Part shown: in pieces, positions 1 through 46,933 of the stretch
How positions within the stretch are numbered: the stretch's first letter is position 1
How the letters are laid out: every line of letters starts with the position of its first letter
Assembly (NCBI RefSeq): GCF_019578655.1
Contig: NC_063259.1
Span: 21,687,277-21,751,276 of the forward strand
DNA from: Ricinus communis
Taxonomy: Eukaryota; Streptophyta; Magnoliopsida; Malpighiales; Euphorbiaceae
Length of the DNA: 64,000 nt
Reading direction: 5' to 3'
Made by a program: the position numbers and the translations under genes
Notes under the pieces: model-generated
The model's input: only the letters and a program-made list of their open reading frames with translations
Told to the model about the DNA's origin: nothing
The model's database searches: none

Positions 1-1162
1 CCACTACTTCACAGTGGGCTTGCCAAGCCTTTTATGTGGAAAAAGGTCCGAAAGGATTCGGGGAAAAAGAGGCTTGTCATAGACTACAAGCCCTTAAACC
101 ATTTCCTTCAAGACAACAAATTTCCTCTTCCTCGGATCTCAAATCTCAAAGTCCATATCCAAAAGGCCTAATACTATTCCAAATTTGACCTAAAGGCGGG
201 CTTTTGGCAACTCGATATCCACCCCAGGAGAGATACAAGATCGCATTTTGTATCCCTAATGGCCAATACCAGACTGTTATGCCCTTTGGGCTCAAGACGG
301 CCCCATCTCAATTCCGGGAAGACCATGATTGAGATTTTTGGCCTATCCTTTACTTTTCTTTGATCTACATCGACGACATCCTACTATTCTCGGAAGCAGT
401 GAAGACCACCACCAATCATACAGTTTCCTTGCCATCATCCGGAAATATGGCATTATCTTTGTCGGGAAAAGAAGAGCACTATTGGCCGACGAGAAATTGA
501 ATTTCTCGATATGCATTTCAAGAATGGCCAATACACATATGGTCCCCACCTGACGAAGGAACTTGATAATTTTCCAGAAGAGATCAGTGAAACAAATTCA
601 ACAGTTCCTTGGAATCCTAAACTATGTTCGAGAGGCCATTCCACACCTGTCTAATTACACGTGCCACCTCTCAAAGATGCTCAAGAAGAACAATCCTTCA
701 TGGGGAGCGGAACAAACAACAGTTGTCAAAAAGCTAAAAGAGCTGGCTCACAATCTGCCACCTCTCACAATCCCGTCAACAGGAGAACTTATTCTCCAAA
801 CAGATGCATCTGACTATGCATGAGGGGCCATCCTCCTAGAAAAGCTCCACGACAAGGAACAATTATATGGATATGCATCGGGTCAGTTTTCCTCTTCAGA
901 AAAACATTATCACACGACCTACAAGGAAATTTTGGCGGTCAAGTACGGGATAAAAAAGTTTGAATTCTTCTTGATTGGACAGCACTTCCTGGTTCGGATG
1001 GATAACTCCTCCTTCCCAAAGATTCTTGAATCCAACCGGAAGACCTTGCACGAGCCCCAACCATCATGATTAAAGTCATGGTTCAGCAGGTATGATTTTA
1101 AGGTTGAGCATATAAAAGGGATAAGAAACCTAATCCCGGATTTCTTATCCAGACTTTTCAAA
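1..1162 (+). pseudogene. Endogenous caulimovirid reverse transcriptase and RNase H, arm A, broken
   Basis: This is the polymerase part of a plant pararetrovirus polyprotein, which copies pregenomic RNA into DNA and removes the RNA strand. The finger-domain motif VIDYKPLN is recognisable near 80-100, and the catalytic box YIDD is intact at 366-377. The RNase H motif TDASDYA lies at 801-823 and is followed at once by a TGA where arm B has Trp. Other damage includes single-base losses in A-runs near 41-95, a TAA at 169-171, and a small deletion with frameshift near 412-420. It is truncated by the window edge and cannot give a functional product. The family call is firm. The genus (petuvirus/florendovirus-like) rests on domain order and general resemblance. 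Confidence 0.9.
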
Positions 1163-2029
1163 CCTCAGAATCAGCCTATAGTCCTTCTCACCTTTACCAT
1201 AAATCTTCCTATAATTTTTATGGCTTCTTCGTCTTCCAGAACCAACCTGCAACCTTCTTCACCACCAGATCTTCCCAACAACCTCACAACCAAACAAGTC
1301 ACTGACTTTGCCCGGAACATGATGTTCCATTATTTGGCAACTTTTCAACAAACCTTCTCACTCCCAATACAATCCAACTTCTTCTTTCCAGACTACCCTT
1401 GGTGTCTGATTTATCACTTATCTCCTGAACATCCAAAGCATGAAAGTGAGTTATGGTTCCTATGATGCCTACCTACAGTCTGTCATCATGCTATAGAAGT
1501 GCCCATTATGAATCTTTTACACTTCTTCAACAATGAAGCAAACTCGGGGTCATATCCTTGGAGATTCCTTACCTGGTTCAAAACTCCATATCAATGGACA
1601 TGAGATCTCCTTAAACTTATCCATGAGCATCGGTTATTCTCAGACAACATTTCCAAAGCTTCGGAATACCATGCTATTTTCATATTACACAGGCCCTATC
1701 TCCGACTGACAGAAAACACATATGCAACCCAGAATATCTGTTACCATTGGAGAAAAATTAATAGTCCTCTACATCTTGCTCCGCCAGCAATCACGAAAGA
1801 TCTAAAGCAGGCCCTGCAATACAGAAATCAATCAAGGACGGCTAATGTCTCAACACCATTAGTATGCACATTCAATGGACACCTGTCAACTGGACAATCC
1901 ATTGAACATTTCTCATTCTCTGGTCTTTCGACCCTACTGGATGATCCTACCTTAACCAGAGCACAACAAGAAGCTCTCATGCAAGATTCCCAGCCAATGG
2001 ATGATGATCAATATGACGATATTTTCTAA
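1163..2029 (+). pseudogene. Viral C-terminal domain of unknown function, arm A, broken
   Basis: This region follows RNase H directly. It opens with an in-frame Met at 1220 followed by MASSSSRTNL and runs about 270 codons to TAA at 2027-2029, ending in an acidic tail (QPMDDDQYDDIF). I recognise no catalytic motif; it is rich in aromatic residues (PDYPWCLIYHLSPEH). In arm B the same sequence is joined in frame to RNase H. Some florendoviruses are described with a second reading frame of unknown function, which may be the counterpart, but that is inference. Arm A is broken by TGA codons near 1464 and 1600 where arm B encodes Trp and Gly. Confidence 0.7.
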
Positions 2030-2066
2030 GCATGTGAAGCTGTCGGCCACTCCTATTACTTTAAGT

Positions 2067-2255
2067 GAATTATTGTATATTGTCCTATTAAGCATGTGAG
2101 TGAATGATGAGTCGTCCTTATTGTCTTCAAAGTTGAGTGTATTATTGTATATGAGTGGAGTGAATTATTAGGTATGTGAATGGAGTGAATTATTGTATAT
2201 TGTCCTATTAGGCATGTGAGTGAATGATGAGTTGTCTTTATTGTCTTGTAAGTGG
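2067..2255 (+). repeat. Direct repeat in the viral intergenic region
   Basis: GAATTATTGTATATTGTCCT occurs at 2067 and again at 2187, each followed by nearly the same 45 bases (AGTGAATGATGAG). The spacing is 120 bp. Arm B has lost part of one copy near 4316, where the sequence jumps to the end of the C-terminal domain, so the two arms differ here by a deletion. Confidence 0.8.
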
Positions 2256-2313
2256 AGGATGAGTGAGATCCCCGCTTAGCCTCCTTTTGTATTCTTATTG
2301 TGATTCTCCTCCC

Positions 2314-2320
2314 TATATAA
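2314..2320 (+). promoter_or_regulatory. TATA box of viral promoter, arm A
   Basis: TATATAA sits in CCCTATATAAGGAG, resembling the TATA context of caulimovirid full-length RNA promoters. A start about 30 bases downstream, near 2345, is inferred. Confidence 0.65.
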
Positions 2321-2611
2321 GGAGAAGTCATTTTGAATAAAATGAGGAAAGTTTCCATTAAGCAACTTCTTACTCTCTCATGGCCTTCTAAACTCCTCCC
2401 TTCTCTTCTCCTCGATCCAATGGCAATGAACTAATAGTTGCTACGATCTGTTTCTGGTATGATCCAAAAGGGCTAACTCGGCTATCGAAATCCAAAAGAG
2501 CAGAAAGATCCCCCATGGCGAGGTGCCTCTTTGTGGTCTTAGCTTGAGGATACCCACCTGCCTTGAGTTTACAGCATGAGGATTATACCATGAACAGCTC
2601 TCGGTTCCCTT

Positions 2612-2619
2612 TGGTATCA
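2612..2619 (+). other. Truncated tRNA-Met primer site, arm A
   Basis: TGGTATCA matches the start of the primer site complementary to plant initiator tRNA-Met (TGGTATCAGAGC). The match stops here and the next bases are an internal RNase H fragment. The intact counterpart in arm B is at 3801-3814. Confidence 0.8.
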
Positions 2620-2918
2620 TCCTCCTAGAAAAGCTCCACGACAAGGAACAATTATGTGGATATGCATCGGGTCAGTTTTCCTCTTCAGAAAAACATTATC
2701 ACACGACCTACAAGGAAATTTTAGCGGTCAAGTACAGGATAAAAAGTTTGAATTCTTCTTGATTTGACAGCACTTCCTGGTTCGGATGGACAACTTCTCA
2801 TTTTCAAAGATTCTTGAATCCAACCAGAAGACCTTGCCTGAGCCCCAACTACTGCGATTAAAGTCATGGTTCAGCAGGTATGATTTTAAGGTTGAGCATA
2901 TAAAAGGGATAAGAAACT
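2618..2918 (+). pseudogene. Third viral RNase H fragment, in the spacer
   Basis: About 300 bp duplicates 825-1124 in the same orientation: the end of the RNase H core and the part containing LESNQKTLPEPQLLRLKSWF. It shares with arm A a base in the GGGTCAG segment near 880 where arm B has GGGTCTG, so it looks closer to arm A. It starts at the broken primer site and ends at the movement protein fragment, so both ends are rearrangement joints. Confidence 0.88.
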
Positions 2919-3709
2919 TGAACATGCTTAGTTTGGGATGCCTGAAGCTTCTCATAGTTAGTGACCCATTCTGTTGGGATCAGCTTTTGTAGATCTTCTT
3001 TTTCCAGTTGCCTGGGAGCCTGGACAACAGTAGGGATATGGCTAGAGTCGGCCATAATGAACAACGCATCAGAGGAGGCTTGAAAGCCTGGGATCTGCAG
3101 ATTGAATGCATGATCCTGTAGTCTATAAACTATCTGATGGTGTATGGTTGAAGAGAGAGCGTTATCGACTCGATTCTCTCCTGTTATCTGAACTTGAACT
3201 TTTAGTGCAGTGGAAAGATAAGGATCATTGAGGGATAGATTGAAATTAGGGAAGAAGGTCAAGACAACACTTCCTGTGTTGAGTGTTGTGACGATCGTTC
3301 TGATTACTGCATGCTCATACTTGAGGTATCTTGTGTCCAGTAGCGACACACGGGCTGTAACCGCTAGTCCCATCCTTCCATGATAGGATAAGACTAGTCT
3401 AACTGCTCCAATATGGAGGTGTGTATAGCCCTGTTTTCTCCACTGTTCTATGAAAGAGGTTGGGATTTCGAGAGTAACGTACTGCTCCTGTGTGGTAGCA
3501 GTAAGAGAACATTGAGAAAGGGAAGAAGATTGGACATATTCTTTTACTGTAAGAGGTTGTTTATGGATAAACTGGTTAAAGGTTTTTCTCACAAAGTTTT
3601 GTTTCTTGAAAATATTGTAAGGGTTCATAATAGGCACTAGGGTATTTTCTATTTGAACATTTTCTGGTATATGGAGATCTCTACAAGATGGTCTATCTTG
3701 TTAGATATG
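2919..3709 (-). pseudogene. Endogenous caulimovirid movement protein, C-terminally truncated
   Basis: This is a 30K-superfamily movement protein, which forms tubules through plasmodesmata in infecting relatives. Family features seen include LEIPTSFIEQWRKQGYTH, HIGAVRLVLSYHGRMG and LLDTRYLKYEHA, followed by VVLTFFPNFNLSLNDP. The frame is open from just after a TAA near 3710. The first ATG is at 3628, preceded by an in-frame GTG at 3637, so the true start is uncertain. About 235 codons remain. The viral sequence ends near 2919, and the frame then runs 17 residues into antisense RNase H DNA and stops at 2864. It lies just after the primer site, its normal position at the start of the genome. This is the least damaged viral frame here. 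Confidence 0.87.
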
Positions 3710-3800
3710 GTTTTCTTACATGAAGGAGAAAGTTATAGAGTAGAAGTGTTGGTAGTAATTTCTGTAGTCATGGTGTTTAGATTTCTCTTCTCTATCACCA

Positions 3801-3814
3801 TGGCTTTGATACCA
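3801..3814 (-). other. tRNA-Met primer binding site, arm B
   Basis: The minus strand reads TGGTATCAAAGCCA. This is the complement of the plant initiator tRNA-Met 3' end with one difference (A for G at the ninth base). It lies about 170 bases upstream of the movement protein frame, the usual place for minus-strand priming in caulimovirids. Confidence 0.85.
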
Positions 3815-4103
3815 AGAGGAGCCGAGAGCTGTTCATGGTATAATCCTCATGCTGTAAACTCAAGGCAGGTGGGTATCCTCAAGCTAAGACCACAAAGAGG
3901 CACCTCGCCATGGGGGGTCTTTATGCTCTTTTGGATTTCGATAGTCGAGTTAGCCCTTTTGGATCATACCAGAAACAGATCGTAGCAACTATTAGTTCAT
4001 TGCCATTGGATCGAGGAGAAGAGAATGGAGGAGTTTAGAAGGCCATGAGAGAGTAAGAAGTTGCTTAATGGAAACTTTCTTGATTTTATTCAAAATGACT
4101 TCT

Positions 4104-4112
4104 CCTTATATA
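4104..4112 (-). promoter_or_regulatory. TATA box of viral promoter, arm B
   Basis: The minus strand reads TATATAAGG within CCTATATAAGGAGAAG, matching arm A. The inferred start is near 4080, with transcription toward lower coordinates. Confidence 0.65.
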
Positions 4113-4339
4113 GGGAGGAGAATCACAACAAGAATACAAAAGGAGGCTAAGTGGGGATCCCACTCATCATCCACTTATAAGACAATAAGGATGACTCATC
4201 ATTCACTCACATGCCTAATAGGACAATATACAATAATTCACTCCACTCACATACAATAATACACTCAACTTTCAAGACAATAAGGACGACTTATCATTCA
4301 CTCACATGCTTAATAGGAGTAGCCGACAGCTTCACATGC

Positions 4340-5149
4340 TTAGAAAATATCGTCATATTGATCATCATCCATTGGCTGGGAATTTTACATGAGAGCTTCT
4401 TGCTGTGCTCTGGTTAAGGTAGGATCATCCAGTGGGGTCGAAAGATCAGAGAATGAGAAATGTTCAATGGATTGTCCAGTTGACAGGTGTCCATTGAATG
4501 TGCATACTAATGGTGTTGAGACATTAGCCGTCCTTGATTGATTTCTGTATTGCAGGGTCTGCTTTAGATCTTCCGTGATTGCTGGCGGAGCAAGATGTAG
4601 AGGACTATTAATTGTTCTTCAATGGTAACAGATATTCTGGGTTGCATATGTGTTTTCTGTCAGTCGGAGATAGGGCCTGTGTAATATGAAAATAGCATGG
4701 TATTCCGAAGCTTTGGAAATGTTGTCTGAGAATAACCGATGCTCATGGATAAGTTTAAGGAGATCTCCTGTCCATTGATATGGAGTTTTGAACCAGGTAA
4801 GGAATCTCCATGGATATGACCCCGAGTTTGCTTCATTGTTGAAGAAGTGTAAAAGATTCATAATGGGCACTTCTATAGCATGATGACAGACTATAGGTAG
4901 GCACCATAGGAACCATAACTCACTTTCATGCTTTGAATGTTCAGGAGATAAGTGATAAATCAGACACCAAGGGTAGTCTGGAAAGAAAAAGTTGGGTTGT
5001 ATTGGGAGTGAGAAGGCTTGTTGAAAAGTTGCCAAATAATGGAACATCATGTTCCGGGCAAAGTCAGTGACTTGTTTGGTTGTGAGGTTGTTAGGAAGAT
5101 CTGGTGGTGAAGGAGGTTGCAGGTTGGTTCTGGAAGATGAAGAAGCCAT
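4340..5149 (-). pseudogene. Viral C-terminal domain of unknown function, arm B
   Basis: This is the better preserved copy of the domain after RNase H. From the Met at 5149 (MASSSSRTNLQPP) the frame is open and continuous with upstream RNase H, with no stop between them, until a TGA at 4619-4621 where arm A has Trp. A further stop follows before the natural end at 4340. Its continuity with RNase H suggests a C-terminal extension of one polyprotein, though the internal Met could also start a separate product. I recognise no known motif. Confidence 0.72.
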
Positions 5150-6500
5150 AAAAATTATAGGAAGATTTATGGTAGAGGTGAGAAGGACTATAGGCTGATT
5201 CTGAGGTTTGGAAAGTCTGGATAAGAAATCCGGGATTAGGTTTCTTATCCATTTTATATGCTCAACCTTAAAATCATACCTGCTGAACCATGACTTTAAT
5301 CGCAGTAGTTGGGGCTCAGGCAAGGTCTTCTGGTTGGATTCAAGAATCTTTGGGAAGGAGGAGTTGTCCATCCGAACCAGGAAGTGCTGTCCAATCAAGA
5401 AGAATTCAAACTTTTTTATCCCGTACTTGACCGCCAAAATTTCCTTGTAGGTCGTGTGATAATGTTTTTCTGAAGAGGAAAACAGACCCGATGCATATCC
5501 ATATAATTGTTCCTTGTCGTGGAGCTTTTCTAGGAGGATGGCCCCCCATGCATAGTCAGATGCATCTGTTTGGAGAATAAGTTCTCCTGTTGACGGGATT
5601 GTGAGAGGTGGCAGATTGTGAGCCAGCTCTTTTAGCTTTTTGACAACTGTTGTTTGTTCCGCTCCCCATGGAGGATTGTTCTTCTTGAGCATCTTTGAGA
5701 GGTGGCACGTGTAATTAGACAGGTGTGGAATGGCCTCTCGAACATAGTTTAGGATTCCAAGGAACTGTTGAATTTGTTTCACTGATAAATTCTCTTCTGG
5801 AAAATTATCAAGTTCCTTCGTCAGGTGGGGACCATATGTGTATTGGCCATTCTTGAAATGCATACCGAGAAATTCAATTTCTCATCGGCCAATAGTGCTC
5901 TTCTTTTCTGACAGCATAATGCCATATTTCTGGATGATGGCAAGGAACTGTTGTAACAGTTGGTGGTGGTCTTCTGCTGTTTCTCAGAATAGTAGGATGT
6001 CGTCGATGTGGATCAAAGAAGAGTAAAGGATAGGCCAAAAAATCTCAATCATGGTCTTCTGGAATTGAGATGGGGCCGTCTTGAGCCCAAAGGGCATAAC
6101 AGTCCACTGGTATTGGCCATTAGGGATACAAAATGCAGTCTTGTATCTCTCTGTGGGCTGGATACCGAGTTGCCAAAAGCCCGCCTTTAGGTCAAATTTG
6201 GAATAGTATTAGGCCTTTTGGATATGGACTTTGAGATTTGAGATCCGAGAAAGAGGAAATTTGTTGTCTTGAAGGAAATGGTTTAAGGGCTTGTAGTCTA
6301 TGACAAGCCTCTTTTTTCCCCGAATCCTTTCAGACCTTTTTTCCACATAAAAGGCTTGGCAAGCCCATTGTGAAGTAGTGGGTTCAATTAGGCCTTCATG
6401 TGATGTCAAGCATTCCCGATCGGGCAAGGGCTAGGTCTGTGGGTGACATTCCCATGTGTGTGGCTTTAGTAGGGTTAATGTCTTCATTAAGTTTGAAGGG
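5150..6500 (-). pseudogene. Endogenous caulimovirid reverse transcriptase and RNase H, arm B, broken
   Basis: Reading leftward: LPFKLNEDINPTKATH near 6490, GLIEPTTSQWACQAFYVEK near 6370, RLVIDYKPLNHFL near 6300, then a TAA at 6209-6211 before the KFDLKAGFWQ region. The catalytic box is HIDD (5999-6010) rather than YIDD, followed by TGA at 5984-5986. From 5863 the frame is open through the connection and RNase H (TDASDYAWGAILLEK near 5560-5530) into the C-terminal domain. The TAA is shared with arm A. The His substitution and the TGA are not. The order agrees with a caulimovirid polymerase. Confidence 0.9.
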
Positions 6501-7275
6501 GAGGCTGATATAGAATTGTGAATTTTTCCACAGAGAAAAAGGGTGTTGAAAATGTGAATGAGATTCTGGACAGAACTGAAGGAATTTTTCTATGTATGGT
6601 AGGAATGGTGGAATTGTATTTGTCACAGAAAACATATTTGAAGTTCCGATTATGGCCATTTCTTGAATTTTATGCCAGTTGGAAGAATTTGGAGCTTTTG
6701 AGCTTGAAGATAAACATCAAACCCTATCAGGATATCCTTGTTTGGAAGATCCGAACCAATGATATGCGTCCATACAACGCAATCAGGAAACAACTGTATT
6801 CCGATCTTCTGTCTTGTGATCAGAGTGGTTTTGAAGGTTTGACCATTGGCTGCCCTAAAGAATTGATCATGGGGCTTCCAATACTCTGATGGGAGAACCA
6901 TTAGGTTCATCATGCTTCTTTGTGCTCCAAAGGTCAAAAAAGCTAATACAGTGGCTTTGAGTATTTTGAAGGTAGGATCTGTATGGGAACATATGGAACT
7001 GGAGGGGGTCTTGTAGTAAATTGAAACGTTTCAGGAGATGGAGAAGAAGCAAAGAAGGAAGACAGTAGGGTTGGAGAGAGAGGATATTGCATTACATCTT
7101 TCAGAATATTCTCCTGACTTTCTTCGTGCAGACCAATCATCAAGAATGGTATCTCACTATCGTCTGAGTCTGAAGAAGATTCTTGTGAGGACTCTGTGGA
7201 GTCTGAGAACTCGATTTCTAACCCAAATAAGCTTTCTGGGGTAAGATCCTCTTGCTCTGAAAGGAGAGATTCTAT
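6501..7275 (-). pseudogene. Endogenous caulimovirid aspartic protease region, broken
   Basis: In caulimovirids a pepsin-like protease between coat protein and reverse transcriptase cleaves the polyprotein. Here GAQRSMMNLMVLPSEYW and HDQFFRAANGQTFKT begin a protease-like stretch (6937-6650). The expected DTG catalytic triad is split by a frameshift: a GAC (Asp) codon at 6933-6935 lies in one frame and the following GAQ in another. The preceding linker (7143-6943) is in yet another frame, and a stop at 7276-7278 separates it from the coat protein. The protease call comes from position and motif remnants. Confidence 0.75.
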
Positions 7276-8111
7276 TTATGCTTCAAAAGAGTCTGGAAGA
7301 GATAAAGACATGTTGACTTGTTGGATCATCTTTGCTGACTTTTCTGGATTCTTAGGACAATTTTTTGCATAGTGTCCCTTTCTTTTGTAGATGAAACATC
7401 TGTCAGACTTGTACCCTTGATTCCGTTTCTTACGGAAATATTTGAATCTCTTTGGGTTCCTTTTCCTGAACTCCTTGTTGCTGCGCGTGTATTTCTGGAA
7501 ATGATATCCAGACTTCTTCTTATGATTTGAACAGACGCAGTTGGCGGCCTTGCACTTAATCTTGAGGTGGTTCTTGTTGCACGCCTTTTGGACTATTAAG
7601 TCCCTTTGAGATAACCTTTTGAATAACTCTTGTTGATCACACAGTCTCTTAATGGAAGAGAGTGTGAACTGCCAGATTTCGCCAAGTGTAATAGAGGTGA
7701 CTGGTCTCTTTGTTGCCGCAATCATATTATTGACCTCAGGTTGTATTTCATCCGGCAGAGAGGTGATGAAGGTATACTTTAGTGTATCGTCACAATCATG
7801 TCCTCCAATGACATAGTAGAGTTTGGACATAGCCGAATAGTGCTTTTCCATATCCTTCATTTTTAAGGAACAGCATTTTCGATCAAAGAACTCTTGTTTT
7901 GCTGTCTTATGACAAGGTCATAACTCCCAAGGAACTGGTTATGGAGGATTGTTACTGCTGCTGATGGAGTTGGTAGAGTGACAAATTGAAGCCTGGTGTA
8001 CTCAGGCTGAGACTGAAACCAATCTCTTAAGCTTCCGATAAATCTTGTGACAAATTCGGCAAGGACCTTTTTGACTGTGGCCCCTTCAAGGGTCATTTGA
8101 AGATAATCCAT
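7276..8111 (-). pseudogene. Endogenous caulimovirid coat protein with damaged zinc knuckle
   Basis: This is capsid protein sequence. The part at 8111-7863 (MDYLQMTLEGATVKKVLAEF, then WFQSQPEYTR) fits the caulimovirid coat core. After a stop and frameshift near 7863 it continues in 7860-7276 with YYVIGGHDCDDTLKYTFITS and a very basic stretch (KRFKYFRKKRNQGYKSDR). The CCHC zinc knuckle that normally binds pregenomic RNA is at 7357-7398, but its second Cys is Tyr (CFIYKRKGHYAKNC). The frame ends at 7276-7278. Confidence 0.85.
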
Positions 8112-9393
8112 GCCAAGAATTCAGAAAGCTTGTCCTTCCATCTTGATGGGGGTAGGTCATCAAAAGTGAACCAAGATCCCGTGCTAGCTGGTTTTGACCT
8201 TGGGTTTGGAGCTCCAGTGGGAGCAAAGAATGACTGTGCATCCTCATCCTCAGGTTCCACTATTTCTGGACTGGGATCAGAAGTGTTCATGAGAATCTCA
8301 GTGATGTCCGCCATCTCTGAAGTATTTGAAGAGGATTCTGAATCATACGGACTGATGAGAGATTGCTCTGGTATTTTTTCTTTACAGGCTAGAGGAGGAG
8401 AGGTTTTCTTTTCTAGGTTTTTTAGGTGTTTTGGGTAAAGATTAGAGAAAGTGTCAAATGGCTGATAAAGGGTTTCTTGTGGCTGTTCTGGTTTTGAAAG
8501 AAAAGGGAATGAAGAATAGTACGAAGGAGCAATAGCAGATGATGTGGAGGCTACTGAAGTAAAGGATGGAATTATTATAGACTGATCTCTCCGAAGATCA
8601 TGCTCAATTTGATCTATTTGTTTCTTCAGCCGTGTGATCTCCTTTTCTTTTTGTATGAAGGCGGGAGTAATGGGCTGAGGTATCCGAAGCTCTCTATCCA
8701 GAGCCTAATACTTTGCAGTAAGCGATGAATGGAGCTGGAGTACTTCTTGTGAGAAAGTATCCAACTTATGATCCAGTTTTTGAGCCAGGTGTAAAGCTTG
8801 GTCTAATTTCTCATCTATCTTTTTTAGATAAGTATTCTGGACGATCGAGTTGGATGTTTGCCAGTTTAGCACCTCTTCTGGAGGTGTCAGGGGCTCTATA
8901 GATCCAGAGGGAGAAATCCTTGAAGGAAGAATTTCTGATCTCTTGTTCTCCGTTTTCCCTAAAGGAGGGAAATCCTCTAGCTGGAACATATAGCACCCTT
9001 GAATTGATGGTTGTACTACTGGTAGATCTGGCTGGATCTCCTTTCTGCAGGTTGCAGAAGGGGCTTTTCCAAATTCGACTCCGAGTTGGGCCAACAGTAC
9101 CTTCAACTCATCGAAAGAGTTATCAAGGACTGTTTTTCCTTCTTTTGCAAGGAGTTCGATAGCCTCATCAAACATTGGGAGTGGTGTTTTGCTCTTCTGT
9201 TGCTTCTGGGAACCATCTGGATCCCAGTCATCCGGCTTCGATCTTAATTCTGAACATGGAGTGTCCGGTGACATATTTTGAGGATTCTTCTTTAGATGCC
9301 AAAAGCAAGGTTCAGCATAGTCTAAGTCATCATCACAAGTGCATCCCGAGCGGCACATCTCTGGGGCAACATCCCAGACGAAGTGTCCTTTGA
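8093..9393 (-). pseudogene. Viral polyprotein linker between movement and coat proteins, coiled-coil
   Basis: From 9358 one frame runs to 8093, interrupted only by TAG at 8705-8707. It contains a Cys-rich start (MCRSGCTCDDD), a Pro/Ser-rich middle, a heptad-like region (KIDEKLDQALHLAQKLDHKL, 8840-8760) and, past the TAG, a second charged helix (EKEITRLKKQIDQIEHDLRR, near 8600). It ends with an acidic segment (MADITEILMN, SPEIVEPEDEDAQSFF) typical of the coat protein N-terminus, and then shifts frame near 8100. The join to the movement protein C-terminus is missing. Virus-like sequence fades out between about 9400 and 9540. Confidence 0.75.
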
Positions 9394-10244
9394 CCTAGGC
9401 AGCGTAGATCTGGTATCTAGAGGACTGGAATGAATGAATAGGGATCTTTTCCCTTGGCCTTAATATTGGTTGTATCATGGATGCTTGAAAGATGGATGGA
9501 GCTGAAGAAGTCTCTCCAGTCTTTGTGAAGATCGTTTTAACAGTGCATAAATAAAAAATATAAGTTATATTAAGTTCCGCACAAAACGCTGGTATTAAAC
9601 TAGCTATAATTAATGTTTAGCTCGGCATCTTCTTTATAGTGTTTTACTGTTAGGTTTAAATATATATCTTACTTTTGCATATAATTTATTTTTAATTAAA
9701 AAATTTATAATTATATATTCGGTAAAATCGGATTTGAATTCAAATTTAAATTTAAATTTACAACTGAGCTAATTATGAGCCGCCGATCTCAAACCGAATT
9801 ATAATTCGAATAATTAAAATAAGCTGAGCTTCAACTTAAGAAACATAGAAAAAATGGCTGGAGCTCAAGCTGAATTCGGTTTAAGTGAACCGAGCTTGAA
9901 AATTCAAAAACTTAGGTTGGCTCAACTCAGCTCGATTGCACCATTAATTGGCAGATAGCATAGAGTTCAACACTCTTCTAACTCATGGTATCTCGTGAAG
10001 CATCCCCTATCCAAATTCAATAAAAAGGATCTTACTGAGTGGAGCTAAGGCATGCCCAATCTAGTAACTCAAACCAGCACTTACAAGAAGCAAAATCAAG
10101 AGCGAACAAGTTAGAATCCCCTACTAGAACATCATAGTACAGGCTCTGAGCATCAAGAGCGAACAACTCAGAAACTCCTACTATTACTTTCTACATATAG
10201 ATGGATGGATTGAGATCCTGCTAATCTCTACACTAGCATGTGGC
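9394..10244. other. Viral edge and AT-rich intergenic DNA, no gene
   Basis: Recognisable viral sequence ends before about 9540. From about 9640 to 9960 there are repeated GAGCTC/GAGCTTGAA and AACCGA words (for example GGCTGGAGCTCAAGCTGAAT), as in common dispersed plant repeats. I see no coding region. Confidence 0.5.
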
Positions 10245-10938
<694 letters not shown>

Positions 10939-13900
10939 TTAAGGAATGAGGCCCTTGCTCTTCAAACTCTCCACAGCATCCTTGATGATTTGCTCCATGG
11001 GAATAAATTCTAAACCCAACTCCATCAGCTTTTTAGCTCCATCCTTTGCCCTTAATAACCCTGGTTGGGTATCCTTTGGCAACCTGCACAATTACACAGT
11101 CGGAGGATTTCAAGCAAGCAGAGATGACACTTTACCAATCTTGACTCGCATTGCAGCCCAGCCCCATGCTTATATCCATGACAGTAAACAACATGACTGA
11201 ATAATTAACACAACAATCCTCGCATAAGGCCCAACAAATTTCAGATTTCAAGTAGAATTACCAAGTAAACTTGATCCCAATGTTTCTTCATGAGAAAAAG
11301 TTGACAGGAAAAAAAGAAATTGTTTTGTCAACTATATTCCTCATTCAGCTAAATATGACAGATCATATTGGGTAGCAACTTGGTTTCAGAACAACAGTGT
11401 GGTGGAATCAGAAGATAATATTCCCAGGCATAACAGATACCCAAAAGAAGAAAACAAAAGAACAAAAGATTTAAGTAGAATCAGAAAATAAAATTCCCAG
11501 TCCAACAGATTGAAATGGGTCGTTGAAGATTTTACCTAGGAACCTTATATTCAGGATATAGTTCAGCAACCTTGGCCACGAAGTCACCATAATGAGATAT
11601 AGCTTCAACACACAAGTGCCTGCCAGATGCAGACGGGTTTTCATATACCATGATATGAGCCATGGCTACATCTTTAAAATGGACAGATCCCATAAAGAAG
11701 TCCTGGTATGTTTCTGTGCAACCTGCAACAGTATAACATTCATCATTAAAGCTTTTCATAATTATACGCTTCAACAACATGGAACTATGAATTATTACCA
11801 GTTTGCTTATTGAAGTACAGTAGATTTAGACTCCTAAAGAGTCCACTATGAGTCTACTATTATGGCGCACCGCCAATGACAGAATGATTCAATGCTTAAT
11901 AGCACAATAACACTCTAGGAAAATGAAATAAAGCACATTGAGATACATACAGATGTTGTGAACTGGAAAACTAATCTTTCCTGGTTGTTATTTCCCAACT
12001 TCCAAGGCACTTGTATATGGAGGAGCCTTTTCCATATCAACTGGTCAGTATCCGGCTAGTGGAAAAGTGTTCTCCACATTCAAACAAAAAATTAAACTTG
12101 AATACTCAAAATTTCTTATTTCCAAAGTAAAGATTCTAAGACTGTTAATTTGTAAATGACTTATCTACAAAAGGATATTTTCTGCAGATAATATTTTTCT
12201 TAATAAGTATAATTATTTTTCTAGTTTGGCTGTAATCCTAAAAATCAATAAGAAATTATATTGTGACTTTTGAAGTACATCAACAAGCCAACTTTCCATC
12301 AGTGAGAAGATAATTAACAGCAAAAATTTGCAATTGCTTCCTCCAGAAGTCAATGAACTACTAGCATATGCCTATATTGTTGTATCTCCTTCCCTTTTCA
12401 TGATTTTGTAGAAGCATAGGGGGAAAGGAAAAGCCCTCTCATTTCCATCACAACTCAATTTTCAAAAGAAAATTGCTTAACTTTTCTCTTCGAGTAGGAA
12501 AATGCTTCCCATTGGCCAATTTCCCTGTACCCACCAAATAGAAAAAAATGTTTCCAAGATAACATTTTTCCAGAAAACCAATCAGAGCCTAAACAACTGC
12601 CACTCTGTTGGGTAGGAGGGAAGTGTATATAAAACCTCCTAGGAGGAGAGAAATTGGGGGGGAGGAGGGGAATTGATATGGAAATCAAAAGCTCCGAGTC
12701 AAAAACTCACAGCTGGTTGAATCTTCAAATGTTTGATTTGAGTCAAAGATACCTATACATACATATGTAAGCATAGAAATTAAGCAAATATCGAATAGAA
12801 AAATGTTTAAAAGACAATCTGATATTTCATTGCTTCTTTAGAACATATATATGCAGTACAAACCAGAAAACCCTCTACATAATTTGTAACTCTTATACAG
12901 TGGTTTAGTGAAAAAGTAATCAAGAGCAAAATGATACAAGTGATAGAGTAACTCTTTGGCGTCATTTATTACATCAAACAAATTAAGAGTCTGCAAAAGG
13001 TTGCCTACAAATGAAACTCCCAAGTAAAAAAACCCCATTCAAATGCATCAGCAATCCTTATACAAACTGAAGCACACTCTAGACTTAAGAAAGAACAATA
13101 TAAAGTACTGCAAGAATTGTTCCAAATCTACTCTCTAAAGCGATCCGCTGACTACCCATTTTTCTCGGATCCCACTGGTTCGTGCAAAAATTCATTTTGA
13201 TTCATTCCTGCTGTATAACAGAACTACTACTACTACTAAATGACAACAATCTTGATAATAAAGGAAAATAAGTTAGTGAAGGAGAACATTATGATTACCT
13301 TGAAGAAGACGCACAAGCATCAACATGCTAGCATTTATAGTTGGTGGAATAACAGGACCCATCACTGTACCTGGGTTCACCACCACCACATCCAACCCCT
13401 TCTCCTTTGCAAACTCCCATGCAACTTTCTCAGCTAGTGTCTTTGATAATGGATACCATAACTATTAAAAAAAGAAATTAAAAGAAAGAAACTTCAGTAA
13501 GACTTACCCCTACATTATAGGCCAGAATAAATAGGCAGGCAAAGTGTTTTTCACTAGCACATTTTGAATGTACATTGTAATACTAATTAATATGCGTCAA
13601 TGACAACTGACTCACTCCATTTTGGTTGCAGTAGTCAACATCAGTCCAGCAATCCTCGGACTTGATGACGTCAGCAGGCCAGTTAGGATTAGGAGTAATA
13701 GCAGAGATAGAAGAAGTGACGACCACGCGCTTAACTCCTTTCTCCTTTGCGGCCGTTAACACGTTTAACGTTCCTTTAATCGCCGGATCCAGAAGCTGCC
13801 CCTGTTCCACATTTTCTATAATTATAAACTTTTATTTTTTATTTTAAAGGAATAAATCTTTAAAAGAAATTGACAAAAAATGCAAGTAAAGAGCAAATAT

Positions 13901-14306
13901 TTAAAAAAAAAAAATTACTTGAGGATCTTGAACTCGATCGACGATGCAAGGAGAGGCCAAATGGAAAACGCCGGCACAGCCGGCGACAGCAGCGACGATG
14001 GAATCGTAGTGGAGAAGGTCAATCTGGTAAAGTCGAAGACGGGACTCTGCTCCTTCCAGGGATTCTAGATGCTTCGTTTCCTTTTCATCATCTTTACAAC
14101 AAATAAAATAGAATTTGAGATGAGTAAGATAGCTTATTCTACTTATACAAAAATCTATAAAAAGAAAAAAAGATAAAACCAATTTAACTGAGATTTTTGA
14201 CGGTGGCGTGGACTGTGTAGCCACGTTGGAGAAGCAGATGGACGAGCCATGAACCTATGCAACCGCTCCCTCCAGTTACGCATACAGTCTCTCCCTCTTT
14301 CGACAT
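10939..14306 (-). CDS. Cinnamoyl-CoA-reductase-like NADPH-dependent reductase, six exons
   Basis: Exons on the minus strand are 14306-14189, 14091-13919, 13801-13616, 13461-13299, 11722-11536 and 11083-10939, all with GT-AG borders and consistent phase, giving 323 residues, a normal family length. The Rossmann motif VTGGSGCIG is at residues 10-18, VVVTSSISA near 123-131 holds the catalytic Ser, and Tyr162 and Lys166 (WYPLSK) complete the extended-SDR triad. True lignin CCRs carry NWYCYGK; this protein has GLWYPLSK, so it belongs to the CCR-like branch, close to Arabidopsis At5g58490 as I recall it, whose substrate I cannot state. [12 protein letters not shown] and [16 protein letters not shown] are also family segments. 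It is probably a cytosolic soluble enzyme. A (TTC)n tract lies just upstream of the ATG. The fourth intron (13298-11723) is long. The gene looks intact. Confidence 0.93.
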
Positions 14307-14331: not shown

Positions 14332-16603
14332 TGGCTTTCTCGTGCTCTACTACTGTGTTTGCTCTGTTAGTGAGTGAGTTTGTGCTTTCTGTTGGATAAT
14401 TTCCATATTTAATTTAATTTTTTTTTTTGAAGATTTTTAATCACTTTTACTAGATAAGTTATTCGTTGCGATCTATTTTAAATTCACTGAAAAAAATAAT
14501 TAAATATAAAATATTTAAATAACTTCACGAACCAAATATAATATTATTTTTTATTTATTTCCACTAGACTATGAAAATAATAAATAATTTATTGAGTAGA
14601 AAATAATTTCACCACAGAACTTCTACTCCTAAAAATAAAACTTTTTTATTTATTTAAAATAAAATATAAAACGAAGAATTTATAATCTAACATAAATATA
14701 TTACATAAACCTAGAGAAAACTTTATAATATATTATCAATTTATTTAGTATAGACTTGTATACGATTTTAATATAACATTTAATACAAAAAATTAGATTT
14801 TAATTGTTATCATTATTATATAATTTATACATTTCTTATTTTTAAAAATTTATCTTGTTAATTTATTGTTACAATACTCTTGTATTGCTCAAAATATATT
14901 AGTTAGAATATTTAAGTTTAATTTAATTTTTTATTAGATAAAATTTTTATATTTTATAATATATGTAGTCAAATTAACTATTTATATTTAGATGAGTTTT
15001 TGCAGTATTTTACATTTTTCCTAATTTTTTTAAAAGTTATTTAAATGTTATATTTAGTTTAAATTATTAGAAGTTCATTTAGTTTAATAACTATAAAATC
15101 TATATTAAAAATATATAAAATAATTGAAAAACTACAATAGAATGAAAGTACATAAAATAACAAAATTAAAAATTGTAACCGAACCGATGATAGTTTGGAC
15201 AAACTCACCACGAGGTCGATCTTACAAAGAATTGTAGAGTATATATTATAAAAACCAACTATCATACAAAATATTAGAAACAAATATAAACACTCTAAGT
15301 CAATAATTTGAGGATAATCTTAAGTTTAATAAAAAAAAATTAAATAATAAAAAAATAAATATAAAACTAGAATGATTAATATAAACTATGCGATAAAATA
15401 GCATTTAATCTAGCTTATATTTAGTAATATCCTTATTTTCCTTAATTCCAAATCTAATAAAAGAGATGGTGATGTGTCATTTTTCCTAAGTCACTCAAGC
15501 TAATGATGCAATATAGATTTCTTATACCAGTATAAATTAAAGTAAAGATGATGTTTTTAATACTTTTAACTTAAAGATTTTTATAACAAATATTACTAAT
15601 AAATTAATATAATAGTCAATCAATAATAATATATAAAACTAATAAACATATAAAGATAAAGAAATCATTTATTAAACTCAAAATATATAAAGTTCATAAG
15701 TAAAAAGTCAAATTAAACACTTATGAAACTTAATTTAACATATTTAATCCAACGATCATTGTAATTAAATAAAAAGACTTAAAATATATAAAACAGAAAA
15801 CTAAACTTATCTCAAAGTTTAAAAGCCCTTCAAATAATGAACAAGATTGATCCTCTCTTTCAATGTCTTCAAAAAACTCTTTTGAATTTTAGAAGAAAGA
15901 TGCAACCAAAGCTAGCTAGACGTAGAAGATGATGTTAGAATTGTAGTAGCCGAATAACTCCCTGTTTAAATTAACCTCTATTTCTTATAGAGATTCCCTT
16001 GTTAAAGTTCTTTTCTCAGCACATAACTACTATAATTATTCCTTACTATCCGAAACCAAACAACTTAAAAGATAATTATCTACTAATTAAATCATAATTA
16101 CTTAAATCTCTCTTTTTGGGCCTTAATGAATTCGATCAGGCCCAAGCTATTGATAGCCTATGTGTATGATTCCCGAGTCTTCTACAACCGTAGTTCAATT
16201 AGAGCCTATTAATGCATTTTTAGCTCAAATTCTCCTTTTTGGCAATTTTATGAATTTAAATAAGAAAACTAAAATAAAATAAAAATACATATTTTTAGCA
16301 TATTATATATAGAAATATATTATTAAAACTCTAAAATATTTTTAAATATCTATATGCAATTTAAACCGATCAAAAATAATATCTTAATTTTATAAAATAT
16401 ATTAATTTATAAATTTAATATTTAACTGAAAATTATATTTATTTTATTTAAATTTTTTATTTAATTATAATTTTATAGTTATGTTATAGAATTTTATTGA
16501 ATTTAGTTCTACCTAAAGCAACATACTTCTCATTTTTGTGTTTTATATAGGTTATGTAAATAAAATAAACTAAAAAGAAATATTATCAGGTATCATCATC
16601 GGT
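14332..16603. other. Divergent promoter interval, AT-rich, no gene seen
   Basis: This 2.3 kb lies between the starts of two genes transcribed away from each other, so it should hold both promoters. It is very AT-rich with no credible coding frame. A less AT-rich part (about 15840-16250) contains TTTTGGGCCTTAATG and may be an old LTR-like insertion, but I found no second copy. Confidence 0.5.
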
Positions 16604-16608
16604 GTGAC

Positions 16609-16616
16609 GACGTGGC
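16609..16616 (+). promoter_or_regulatory. ACGT-core (ABRE/G-box-like) element upstream of GILT gene
   Basis: GACGTGGC lies about 130 bases before the GILT start codon. Elements with this core bind plant bZIP factors. Because the gene has a signal peptide, a secretory-stress role is conceivable but unproven. Confidence 0.35.
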
Positions 16617-16741
16617 CGGGTCTGGCAGCTAACACCTGTAAATCTTGCATGTCAGATATTTTTTCATTTTCTGGAAAAGACTTCACAAACAATAAAGATG
16701 TGTATCTGGGAAGCTTCTTGTTCTATCCAAGAATTGGTGAA

Positions 16742-19700
16742 ATGGCTTCTTCATCTTCTTCGCCTCCAATAAAACCCCTCACTTTAATTCTCTGTATTTC
16801 CTTAATAATCAGTTCCTTTTCTTTTTCTTCTTCTTCTTCTTCTTCTTCTTCTTCTACAGATTCAGAAAAAGTAACGTTAGCTTTATACTATGAATCGCTT
16901 TGTCCCTACAGTGCTAATTTCATTATAAATTACTTACCAAAGCTATTAGAAAACGATGAGCTCTTCTCTATTGTCGATCTCTACCTTTCCCCTTGGGGTA
17001 ATGCCAAGCTCAAATCAAACGACACCTTCGTTTGCCAGGTCTCTCTCTCTCTCTCTCTCAATTTCTTTTTCTTTTTCTCTTTTTTTTCTTGGTTTCCTAG
17101 AATTAAAAACTGATTATTGATCCTGCTAATTGCAGCATGGTCCATCTGAATGTTTATTGAATACAATTGAAGCTTGTGCAATTCATGTTTGGCCTCAGTT
17201 GGTGAGCCAGCTACTTATTATTTACTTAATTTTCTATATTTGATTACCTGATTTGATTAAAATTGCTGCTACGTGTCTGACAGTTAGAATTTGCTGTTAT
17301 TGTCTAGTAATCGGAAGTGTATTCTTTTGTGGAACTTGGTGTCTAATAATTCTTTTCTTTGTTGGGAGACAATTCCTTGTGTTTTGTGTGTCATGGGTGC
17401 TTTCTTGCAATAAAGGATTCGTTATAGTCAAGTGGTATACTCGAGGGAAATAATGTGAATCATCAGCATTCTGCTTACAAAGCATGAACCTAAAGCATTT
17501 CTCGTTATTACATATTCGTTATGTTTCGAGGCCCGTGATAATTGTATTATCCATTTGTTGTATCATTGAAGAAGTGGATTACTTTTGTAGCTTCTTTTTG
17601 AAACATTTATTTTAGACAAATAAAAGACTTTTATCTGTTTCCTGTCTTCTGGTTGAATTTACGTAAGACCTTACATTTCCTGGACGGTAAGTCTGGATTT
17701 ACGTTCTTTTCCCAAATGCCATTTATTTGATGCAGGAGGAGCATTTTCCTTTCATCAATTGTGTAGAGTCTCTGGTATATGAGCGCAGATACCCCGAATG
17801 GGAGTCATGCTTTGAGAAATTGGCTTTGGATGCCAAACCTATTGCTGATTGCTACACTAGCGGGCTTGGCAAAGAGGTCAGCTTCCATGCATTTTGTCTT
17901 CTACTTCTCTTACAAACCAATTTGAGTTATGGGCTCTTGCTATTATATTATATGGTGAAAGAGATGAACTTTATTTGAGGTAATTGCTATAGTTTGCAGT
18001 AATCAGTTTTACATTTTAAGTTCAGTAAAGGATAACATGGATATTATATGCAGTCCAGTGGAAGAAAGTCGATTTATTTCTTTCTATAAGTCAAGAACTT
18101 TCCTGCATTTATTGTTTTAATTTTGCAATTTGTTTGACTTTAAAGATTTTTTTTCTTTTTCTTATTTTTCCCCTTTTTCAATGATTTTAGAATTCCTGTA
18201 AAGTATTGAAAAAATTGCATTGTTGATGCAACCAATGATGCATCTAAGTCAACTAGCATGGATCCACTAGCCTATGGAGGGCCAATGACACGAGCAAGGA
18301 GTAAAAAGTTCAAGCAAGTCTTAAATTCTTACTTGGAGCATGTTTTGAAGATGGCTAATGATGATGCTTTTAATGAAGATAACAACGCCTTAAAGATAGT
18401 GACATTAATTGCTATTAATGAAGTTTAAACTTCTGGTCATGGAACAAGGTCATCAAGGATCAAAGTCAACAGGTTTTCCTAGGGTTTCTAGAAGCATTGG
18501 GCCTCACATTAGAGTTTGTCATGGATTCTTCTGGTTAGTTCAGGTTTGTTAAGGGAAATAGCTGTTCTTAAAAATGGTTGCAGCTTCGAGGTGGATCTAA
18601 ATGATGTGATATTGGTAGTGATTTGTTCTCCTGATAGATTTTAACCAGCGTCAGAAGTTGTTTCCATTTTTTTACTCTATTAAAAGCTGTGGCTGGTGCA
18701 TATTTTGATTATATTATAATAACACGTCCGAAAATCTTGGACAAGAAAAGATTGAGAAAGACAAAGTTAATAGCAAACCTCATTTACCCATCCAACTGCG
18801 ATTTTGGAATCAAACTCAATAAGAAATATCTGTTAGCAAAAAAATCATTTGATTAAGAGAGCTCCAAAGCCTTGAGGATGGCTAGCAGCTTGCCTCATTA
18901 GAGTCTTTAATCCCAATAGGACAGGAGAATAGAGTATGAAAAAACCATGAGTTTGGATTACCCCTCCCCACCTTCCCTTTTCTCTATTTGATCAGAAACT
19001 TCTCTTCTTATTTTAAAAGTTTTGAGCAAGCATGTTTTTCTTTTCCTGCTAGGTTCGGGTTTCTCAGTTTCTAAATCTTTTTGGTGTACACGGACACAAA
19101 TGCAAACATAATTAACCTTTGCAATTAGGCTAGTATTGATATTTAAGGTTCTGCATTTTTCCATCATCCATTTCCCCACAAGCTTTATGAATAGAAAATG
19201 GGTCTGGTTATGATAGAACAATTGGGAAAGAAATGGCTATTAACTCTTAGCAATTGAATTAGTTTGACCTGACACCATCCTGTTCCACTTGTCTTGAACT
19301 ACCATTAGTTTTGGGAAATTTATTCTTGTAGGATTTGATTCACATTCAGATATTTGTGTTTGAAGAGGTTCTTTTGTGGGTAGATGGAGCACAGAAGAGA
19401 AAGTGATCTACAAAATCATTATTAGCACAACAGCTAACATATTCTGCTGATAATTTTATTCCTTTTCATCTGTAGAGCAAAGAATGCTCGTTCTTAAGAC
19501 AATGGGAAAATGTAAAGTTTCACATGACACGAGAACCATTGAATCAAAACCCCTTACTTTATAATCTAACTACTAAATGGAAGCAAGCAAGAGTCCTCAA
19601 GTCAAGAATTTGTAGATAAGGCTTATGCAACTAGTTGATGTCAATGCATCTTACACGTTCTTAGTTTATTTTTAAAAATATTCATCATGACGTCTTTGTT

Positions 19701-26500: not shown

Positions 26501-26942
26501 GATTTAAAGAGGAAAAAAAAAAAGATTTTAAGAGATTTATAACTTTTTCACTTATGAAGGTGAATAAACTGAAAATCTGTTATTTAATAAAATAATGAAT
26601 GACTACAATTTTCTTTTAATTTCAAAATTATTCCGATCAATTCATGAATTTTATATTATATCAGTAAAATAAAATATTTAAAAAATTCATCTAATTTCAT
26701 TATTCAAGAATTAAATTCTAAAGTTTCTCAATTCAAAATGAAGCTGAGTGGTTGTGAGATTTGATCAATTTCTAGTTTGTAGAGTATCATTGTTGAATCA
26801 GGATTGTTGTTATCAAGCATGAGTTGATACTAACTTAAAGATATTAATACCATATTAGTAATCAATTAATTGAGTTTACTATAAAAAATTATGGATTCGT
26901 ATTTATGGAGTCAGTTTTTGGCGTTTGATTGGATAAATGTTT
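23548..26942. other. AT-rich intergenic DNA, no gene
   Basis: This is more than 75% A+T by eye with short TA runs (25426-25452) and A-runs. No reading frame shows real protein character. Confidence 0.5.
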
Positions 26943-29348: not shown

Positions 29349-31250
29349 AATCCTCCAACTTCCTATTTTAACCTATTAAGTCTTCAAATTATTCCTTCTC
29401 GTATATGGTCGGAGTTCTTAGATTTGTGAATTGACCTATTGAATTCTTGGACTATCATTTATCTCTTATAATATAAGAGGAAAATTACTCTAAGAAGGTT
29501 ACTGAATTTTACATTTTGTATTAAATTAGTACCTTAATTTTAATTTTTTCTTTGTATACTACAGTTTTATTTTTATTTCAAATGAAGGTTACTCAAGACA
29601 TGTGGCGACCAAGGATATCACTTGTCACATAAGCATCCACGTCAAAAGCCTTGCCAGTCACGGTATTTTACGTTATATTAAATTGATACCCCTAATTTTT
29701 ATTTTTCTTCTTATTGGTACTCTAATACCTATTTGTCTTTTAAATTCTGATGTAATTTAACTAAATAAAGATCAAAAGAGCATATTCTCCATATCACCTT
29801 ACACATTAGATTAAGGCCATTCACTTAGCCATATGCTCGGATTCATCTAAATCAAACCTTTAAATTTACTTTTACCCAAAATAAAGTTTTTCTCTTCCCT
29901 TGCGCCCTTTATCATATCGATCCCACATCAAATCCCTAATTATGTCATCCATCAACTTAAAACTTTTTTAGATCTTAAATTTGTTACTAAAATTTTCTTT
30001 TATCTCAATGGATTTACTATTTTTTAGCCTAATTTCTCAAATTAGTAATGGACACTAGATAGCAATTTCAAATCGCAAATACGATGAACTGGCTTCGATT
30101 AGGACCTTAAAGCTTATGCTAACTCGTGGAAATATAATTTTTGATTGTCAAAGATATGGAATGGGTAGTATCCAAGCACGAGATTGAATTGTTCATTAGC
30201 CTTTAAAAAAATATATATATATATATTTTTTTGTAATTTACTTTAATAATGATACTCAAAGAAATGTACTAATTTCAGGTTTAATCTATTAAGGATGTAT
30301 TATAATGGTAATTTTTACCTTTTGGTTTCATGATGGTAACTTTTGTTATTGTTATATTAGCATTACGTCATAGCTTAAGACTTATCAAATCATTAGTTGC
30401 CTCTGGTAAATGTGCTTCGATTTAAAACTTATTATGAAGATAAAGAATATTTCAAAAAGAGAAATAAAATAAAGAACATCTCATGGCTCAATAGGTCAAA
30501 GTAATTAAAAATTGACATTAATAAGTTAAATAATGATAAATTTGAGGACCCAATTGGTAAAGATAGAAACTTTCAAATCCAACTTTCAAGATTTAACAAT
30601 CTTGAACACACAAGTATGAATTCCCTTCCTTACTCAATATCCCAATTTAAGTCTCTAAAGGTCGTAATTGAATTATCTGACTATGCATTTTGATTCTTCT
30701 CGAACCTCAAATACATAAAAGAAAGAATGAAAGTTTGGTTATTGAGAATTGAATACACAGTGATGATAGCTCAATAAATGATCTCCTTAACTCTAAATAC
30801 TTATGAAAATGATGTATGTATGATTCTAAGTATGAGATTATTTATGTTAGTTGAAAATGATTTATGATCAAATGAATTGCATAAATACGAATAACTTATT
30901 ATTCCTTGAAAAAGAAGAAAAGAAAAAAAGAGACCAAATTGCTAAATAAATTTTATAGCTTTAAATTAAACTCAATAACGATCGTCTAAAGTTATAAAAG
31001 AATTTGATGAAGGAATTGTATACCAAACTATACAAAAGAGAAATGATAATATCAATGATTTTGATGGTAGCCATTTCAAGCCTATGGTTTCTACGATTAA
31101 AATGCTCTTCTGTTCATTTTAAATAATTTTAACAATTAAATTTACAAACAGCAGTTGAGATTTATTATCTAAGAAATAACTATTAATTTCTAGAAATTTA
31201 AATTTTAGATTTTAAATAAAACTCCAACCATTTAATTTAAAATAAGAAGT
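29349..31250. other. Intergenic DNA, no gene
   Basis: The first few hundred bases look like decayed non-coding repeat, with iterated phrases such as AAATCCTCCAACTT and TTAAGTCTTCAAATT. No coding frame is supported. Confidence 0.45.
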
Positions 31251-40173: not shown

Positions 40174-40435
40174 AATGACGATCTGATGTTAGTTTCACCC
40201 TATTTTCCTGATCAGTTTATACTTACCCTTTCCCTTTTAAAAGACTATCCGGTTCTTCTTCTTGTTCAAGAGTTTCAAAGTGGAAGAGGGATTCTTGCTG
40301 GCTTGCTTTCTTGCTTGTCGATTGGTGTGGATCTTTTCACGGGTAGAAGATTATGTTGTTTTTTTGTGTTCCTTTCTTTCTTTCTTTCTTTATTTGTGAG
40401 AAGGAGAGGGTTTCATGGAGAAGAGAAGAAAGAGA

Positions 40436-46928: not shown

Positions 46929-46933
46929 CTAAA
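46817..46933 (-). pseudogene. Plastid-derived 23S rRNA fragment, copy 1, first part
   Basis: The minus strand carries the late part of a plastid-type 23S rRNA. The plus strand shows ACTCATCTTGGGGCGGACTT, then GCTTAGATGCTTTTAACAG and TTTACCGTGGGACGATAATT, which follow the plastid sequence as I know it, mostly with C-to-T or G-to-A changes. It is interrupted at 46933 by the retroelement and resumes at 52727. A mitochondrial 26S origin is less likely but not excluded. Confidence 0.82.

Follow-up and report, generated by a model that had tools for sequence, protein, structure and literature searches.

How did two copies of one viral segment come to lie beside each other in opposite directions in the castor bean genome, and does the resulting inverted repeat serve the plant as a source of small interfering RNAs (siRNAs)? 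This question is raised by a 64,000-nucleotide stretch of Ricinus communis DNA (assembly GCF_019578655.1, contig NC_063259.1, positions 21,687,277–21,751,276; hereafter the window), the first part of which had been predicted from its letters to hold an endogenous pararetrovirus (EPRV) arranged as a long hairpin-forming inverted repeat that could act as an antiviral siRNA source. The siRNA idea has been published before for tomato and soybean. For the structure itself, the best explanation is repeated formation by integration at the primer-binding site (PBS) for tRNA-Met, the place at which the left-hand copy (copy A) ends.

The presence of two inverted copies of the viral segment was confirmed by comparing the window with itself. 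Positions 1–2619 matched 6381–3807 in inverted orientation (94.0% identity, 2,635 columns, 4,050 bits), whereas 50 dinucleotide shuffles of 1–6385 gave no inverted match better than 35.6 bits (24 nt). Within the window, the two arms were 96.6% identical over 2,559 aligned bases, differing by 67 transitions, 19 transversions and 12 gaps, and 36 perfect runs of at least 21 nt, totalling 2,070 bases, were found between them. Base 1 is only the edge of the window, and copy A reaches about 3.5 kb further left, to position 6504 of the left flank (L009, G000:C4:21677277–21687276). In this flank, 7070–10000 matched 9338–6382 of the window at 94.0% and 6504–7071 matched 3810–3244 at 95.8%, both inverted. 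Copy A is therefore about 6.1 kb long and its pairing with the right-hand copy (copy B) covers about 5.5 kb, the whole locus occupying C4:21683780–21696820 (13,041 bases, about 13.0 kb). Inverted duplications are a known type of assembly artefact, and a palindromic chimera could produce a structure of this kind. However, the arms differ by 3.4% substitutions in addition to the 12 gaps in the window part, and by 3.0–6.6% per piece; moreover, their ends are different and independent loci carry the same kind of join, making an assembly artefact extremely improbable.

The ends of the two copies were then read from their anatomy. Copy A, on the + strand, starts 4 nt inside the PBS, where A+T-rich host DNA (...ATATA) adjoins ATCAGAGCC. 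It proceeds from the PBS to the movement-protein (MP) region and, across an internal deletion, to the coat-protein (CP) region and the next PBS, stopping 8 nt inside it after TGGTATCA. Copy B, on the − strand, runs from 9544 through the CP, reverse transcriptase (RT), RNase H, promoter and PBS to the MP region at 2918. Since the two ends of copy B are separated by 36 nt in other copies (L002), copy B corresponds to a circle of unit length whose opening lies between MP and CP. In each copy the PBS lies about 300 nt downstream of the TATA box. The coding-sense 3′ ends of the copies point toward each other, as do the two TATA boxes, so that the arrangement is tail to tail and not head to head as had been supposed. 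The 1.2-kb spacer of the original prediction is present, but it is itself viral, consisting of an RNase H scrap and the MP region of copy B. The junction at the end of copy A (J1) is unique, with one exact match in the genome and one further place carrying 2 mismatches, and it was spanned by none of the other 39 BLAST matches in the genome. The parts of the locus are the following.

L009:6304–6503: left host flank, 88% A+T
1–2619, + strand: right part of copy A, with RT, RNase H, C-terminal region, promoter, leader and the first 8 nt of the PBS
2314–2321, + strand: TATA box TATATAAG of copy A, directed rightward
2612–2619, + strand: truncated tRNA-Met PBS TGGTATCA, the end of copy A and junction J1
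2618–2917, + strand: RNase H scrap, a junction filler that is a second copy of 829–1129
2918–9544, − strand: copy B, a circularly permuted unit-length copy without the 36 nt between its ends, compared with L002 and 20 other copies
2918–3697, − strand: MP region of copy B (Pfam PF01107, 3.4e-15 on 2864–3697; relatives)
3802–3814, − strand: tRNA-Met PBS of copy B, TGGTATCAAAGCC
4105–4112, − strand: TATA box TATATAAG of copy B, directed leftward and converging on that of copy A
4622–5881, − strand: open frame with RNase H and the C-terminal (ORF2-like) region (RT_RNaseH_2, 3.4e-22; RT_RNaseH, 1.1e-20)
5987–6208, − strand: RT fragment (Pfam RVT_1, 1.2e-12)
6653–7030, − strand: weak aspartic protease match (RVP, 0.008; 16.9 bits, under the Pfam cut-off of 20.7)
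9545–9744: right host flank, 78% A+T

The PBS end of copy A is shared by most of the castor copies that were scored. A leader query (3816–4066, − strand; 251 nt upstream of the PBS), with the best 40 of 608 candidates scored, gave 42 matches, two of which belonged to the window itself, copy A ending at +8 and copy B running through. Among the 40 other leader-bearing ends, 29 stopped in the interval from about −40 to +11 of the PBS, while the other 11 continued into the MP region; half of the ends (20 of 40) lay within −5 to +11. Twenty-seven of the 29 stops were placed by script, and the remaining two (L050 and L064), which the script had misplaced, were placed by eye. In contrast, no break within 89 nt was found in any of 38 copies read with a mid-genome control query of the same length (8000–8250, − strand; best 40 of 287 candidates, 40 matches including two of the window's own), and the difference from 29 of 40 at the PBS was significant (Fisher p = 1.2e-12). 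The 5′ side was assessed using a further query (3540–3790, − strand; best 40 of 195 candidates, 41 matches, 39 read and counted by eye). Seventeen of these 39 copies started no more than about 50 nt from the PBS, mostly downstream of it, while 20 ran through and 2 started further in. Ends at the PBS are thus the rule for this virus family in the castor genome. Literature searches on tail-to-tail or tRNA-junction joins and on head-to-head or discontinuity joins returned no match, which does not mean that the PBS rule is unpublished.

The inverted arrangement is likewise ordinary for the castor genome. Twenty other loci of 10 kb each (matches 2–21 of 42; best 40 of 385 candidates) were compared piece by piece, and inverted virus pairs were present in five of them (L013, L022, L026, L019 and L023). 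Inverted viral arms longer than 1.4 kb lay within view at L013 (2,580), L022 (2,010) and L026 (1,462), whereas at L019 and L023 the inverted leader was just beyond the 10-kb view and continuity was judged by distance, the L023 partner being only 71% alike. L021 and L028 contained fragments of both orientations but lacked long arms that match, and the remaining 13 of the 20 sampled loci had no inverted viral pair inside 10 kb. The pairs are head to head at L022 and L026 and tail to tail at L013, L019 and L023. Furthermore, PBS-linked tail-to-tail joins were found at four other loci (L031, L036, L039 and L013/L063), of which L036 and L039 are direct tail-to-tail joins. The PBS region runs into an antisense leader at L031, into antisense RT at L063 (locus L013), into sense RNase H at L037, like J1, and into promoter sequence at L062. 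Separately, the match tables contained pairs of opposite-strand viral matches about 0.3–3 kb apart at G000:C2:29266446–29268370, C10:5331846–5335686 and C6:23330325–23333598.

We consider it very likely that the locus is one old complex site, at which two near-unit-length viral molecules and a scrap were end-joined tail to tail, captured and left to decay. Copy A would represent a linear unit opened at the tRNA-Met PBS, the start of minus-strand DNA synthesis. The free PBS end of such viral DNA would be joined, at times to another end of the same kind, and then captured; joining of two PBS ends gives tail-to-tail joins. Here, two near-unit-length DNA molecules of the same lineage, together with the scrap, would have been joined by end-joining, and the product captured at an A+T-rich place and later decayed.

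Several published systems bear on this proposal. Caulimovirid virion DNA has discontinuities at its priming sites, and its minus strand is primed by tRNA-Met (ICTV profile, PMC7660458). Double-strand-break repair at TA-rich sites is favoured by a review (PMC10377300) and by the florendovirus paper (PMC4241990), and the castor ends are in keeping with it. In rice, the ends of endogenous Rice tungro bacilliform virus (RTBV)-like sequences (ERTBV) cluster, as the castor ends do, at the intergenic region and the strand-discontinuity site of the virus, and the authors concluded that integration followed reverse transcription (Kunii et al., 2004, PMC526188). The rice sequences belong to another genus in another host; in castor, by comparison, the ends were counted against a same-genome control and tail-to-tail joins were noted. 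The loci of endogenous banana streak virus (eBSV) in banana are similar in that viral fragments are duplicated in the same and in opposite directions. However, eBSV is described as replication-competent, whereas both castor copies are broken by frameshifts and stops.

The relationship between the two copies was evaluated using trees of six pieces built with the 20 sampled loci. A and B were sisters in 6 of 6 trees (supports 0.93, 0.985, 0.98, 0.94, 0.76 and 0.92), a result that fits one infection. The same sisterhood also favours a later inverted duplication, in which a single integrated copy would have been duplicated inversely by chromosomal rearrangement. However, the ends of A and B differ and show opposite permutation (PBS to PBS in one, MP/CP opening in the other), and the inner junctions contain no host DNA, a viral RNase H scrap being wedged between the copies. 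A chromosomal duplication of this kind is therefore very unlikely. The A–B distance was 0.030–0.066 per piece, and copy A has a longer branch than B. Plant DNA accumulates about 7e-9 substitutions per site per year, which would place the separation of A and B at roughly 2–5 million years; this age is a maximum if the molecules were not identical at the time of joining. Within the 300-nt region present three times, private differences numbered 9 in copy A, 9 in the scrap and 2 in copy B.

Several observations weigh against the capture of end-joined sister molecules as a single event. The microhomology at the junctions is only 1–2 nt, and for this reason we infer, and do not claim to observe, the end-joining of viral DNA after reverse transcription; the single event is likewise an inference. 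By plain distance, four of the six pieces placed B nearer to L011 than to A and a fifth gave a tie; in one piece A, too, was nearer to L011 than to B. Since plain distances favour L011, the sisterhood of A and B derives from the trees, in which only 20 other loci were included. The divergence between the arms is uneven along their length (chi-square p = 4.6e-5), which points to gene conversion or recombination. Moreover, the ends of copy B itself do not lie at the PBS, and none of 20 other copies had a break in its 36-nt gap. Finally, only top-scoring matches were sampled, and the leader query under-represents ends further upstream of the PBS, although this bias toward copies that reach the PBS does not create the pile-up there.

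At the opening of copy B, a plus-strand priming site was considered, a purine-rich tract abutting position 9544 in other copies. This candidate was rejected, as longer purine runs exist elsewhere and 0 of 20 copies break in the gap.

The identification of the element as an endogenous pararetrovirus was borne out by the Pfam matches to MP, RT and RNase H and by a match of the RNase H stretch to the PDB chain 8r0s_A ‘Enzymatic polyprotein’ (2.7e-38). The close named matches of the viral query were plant ‘polyproteins’, and the RNase H query showed 94% identity to a Ricinus communis protein over 23% of its length. The circular order is MP, followed by the CP, protease and RT regions; the CP region had no family match in the Pfam search, the MP piece had no relative among the viral contigs searched, and Rfam and tRNA scans of the window gave no match. 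The C-terminal region is common to relatives in other plants (for example, P0002, 48% over 97% of the query); it lies in frame with RNase H and is a candidate counterpart of the florendovirus-specific ORF2. The tRNA-Met PBS, whose sequence is as printed in PMC13308828, was found as TGGTATCA at 2612 (+) and 3814 (−), and TGGTATCAGAGCC occurs in many other copies. Insertion into A+T-rich DNA was evident from the flanks of the locus (88% and 78%), and several other copies run directly into (TA)n-like DNA. Taken together, the locus appears to be a florendovirus-like endogenous pararetrovirus, a class drawn from its domains, PBS and flanks.

Endogenous florendoviruses (Geering et al., 2014, PMC4241990) have in common with the castor locus the order from MP to RT–RNase H, the tRNA-Met site, A+T-rich flanks and rearranged copies, and differ from it in the ORF2-like region, which in the present locus is in frame with RNase H. 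The parts of that paper considered report neither tRNA-site ends as a rule nor inverted pairs, and the words ‘invert’ and ‘discontinuit’ have 0 occurrences in its main text. That paper puts florendovirus sequences at over 1% of the R. communis genome, and caulimovirid RTs in castor are given elsewhere as about 2 per Mb (PMC5766536). Within the family, about 115 extra bases were found at the position corresponding to 9023/9024 of copy B in 5 of 20 sampled copies (L023, L026, L027, L029 and L030); copy B and most other copies lack them, which marks two virus sublineages. In the gene model P0306 (R. communis LOC8273460), a viral movement protein is fused to a host-like C-terminal part, which by eye we take to be a NusG/KOW-type protein, and the model may be an annotation error or a real fusion.

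The expression that this anatomy would allow was assessed with transcription starts assumed about 30 nt below the TATA boxes, at 2345 and 4081. The leader of the rightward RNA was predicted to fold onto the antisense leader of copy B with 269 of 273 bases paired, the minimum free energy (MFE) being −876 versus −502 (SD 12) for 12 shuffles. Alternatively, the RNase H scrap at 2618–2917 could pair with 5240–5540, and the two stems cross in order. Because the viral promoters are located within the arms and point toward one another, RNA from them could fold back its leader only, and RNA for the full hairpin would have to start at a promoter beyond the locus. The hairpin originally predicted is thus upheld in one respect, as double-stranded RNA (dsRNA) is possible if an RNA spans both arms, but not for RNA from the viral promoters. 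If the locus is transcribed, the converging promoters would be expected to give antisense RNA along with a hairpin of about 270 bp formed by the leader, whereas transcripts entering from outside would form a long hairpin; both would be Dicer-like substrates. We speculate that whole-arm RNA might arise, for example, when transcription of the short-chain-dehydrogenase-like exons (− strand, 10.2–14.3 kb) reads through. The lack of a poly(A) signal was discarded as a feature: AATAAA occurs 0 times on the + strand of 2345–9544, but 8 of 100 shuffles also had none (mean 2.32). Just upstream of the viral promoter, short repeats of about 23–25 nt lie at 2131–2200 and 2064–2257 with lengths that differ between the arms, and arm gaps of 32 and 25 nt fall at 2051 and 2147; a fast-changing promoter region is likely.

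Inverted repeats with long perfect runs, together with TATA boxes that converge and a self-folding leader with the MFE given above, are what a working siRNA source might look like, its dsRNA being diced to 21–24-nt siRNAs that would silence related copies or episomal virus. Such a function has published precedents in tomato and soybean (PMC10377300; PMC9124383). Moreover, 22-mers common to at least one of the 20 other viral loci made up 61% of arm A in the window, 59% in the portion of the arm within L009 and 69% in copy B, compared with 0% of a host control stretch. Because these 22-mers are common to other loci, siRNAs from the locus could act on relatives, and reads could be assigned to the locus only at unique positions. 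In contrast, a promoter beyond the locus would be required for the full hairpin. When the window arms were compared, C/T differences were commonest at CG (12.3% of sites) and CHG (10.1%), with 4.8% at CHH, a pattern expected of methylated DNA and thus an indirect indication of silent chromatin. Furthermore, since inverted pairs are common in castor (5 of 20 sampled loci) and bear no sign of selection, the arrangement is not in itself a sign of selection for defence. We therefore regard a working siRNA source at this locus as unlikely, and the ‘piRNA-cluster-like’ antiviral role of the original prediction is not supported. A C-to-T asymmetry at CG sites (10 differences in B against 1 in A; p = 0.012) was chosen after looking and was not used.

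In tomato, inverted-repeat caulimovirid loci produce 22-nt siRNAs by which matching transcripts are brought to degradation; caulimovirid-derived inverted repeats are also described in soybean (review PMC10377300); the 22-nt siRNAs of tomato EPRVs are DCL2-dependent (PMC9124383). The tomato ‘TSAs’ (Valli et al., as given in PMC10377300) resemble the castor locus in being rearranged EPRVs with a hairpin-capable inverted repeat. They differ in host and virus lineage, and the viral promoters converge inside the repeat in castor. Florendoviral small RNAs were reported in eight species, castor not being among those given (PMC4241990), and a literature search on castor small RNA and pararetroviruses turned up only the review.

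Outside the locus, the window contains short-chain dehydrogenase/epimerase-like exons (10245–14254, − strand), a GILT exon (16574–17113, + strand) and a gene for an ALOG-domain protein (39466–40188, − strand). Large direct duplications, 94–96% alike, pair 26937–29349 with 47747–50183 and 45300–47575 with 52791–55024, and they come with a tandem pair of 87-nt units, present in each of four copies (47399, 50525, 52550 and 54848). One frame tested in the 26937–29349/47747–50183 pair and one in the tandem repeats had no Pfam match.

These findings shift the question from one odd locus to a castor-wide rule of PBS ends (29 of 40, versus 0 of 38 in the control). Since florendovirus-like copies end at the tRNA-Met site, integration can be expected to yield inverted pairs whose promoters converge. 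Taken alone, an inverted repeat is poor evidence that a locus evolved for defence, and an origin through PBS joining becomes testable for the inverted-repeat fossils known to supply siRNAs in tomato and soybean. What deserves further attention is how PBS ends are linked with tail-to-tail joining and with promoters that converge. It may even be, and we hold this to be distinctly doubtful, that, with the promoter about 300 nt from the PBS and a tendency to integrate by PBS ends, tail-to-tail joining automatically creates two converging viral promoters and a leader complementary to itself, so that reverse transcription keeps making ready-made siRNA loci against the virus's own family, in which case heritable RNA immunity would be a by-product of integration. 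If this is true, castor bean would contain at least five joins of this kind, the locus in the window among them.

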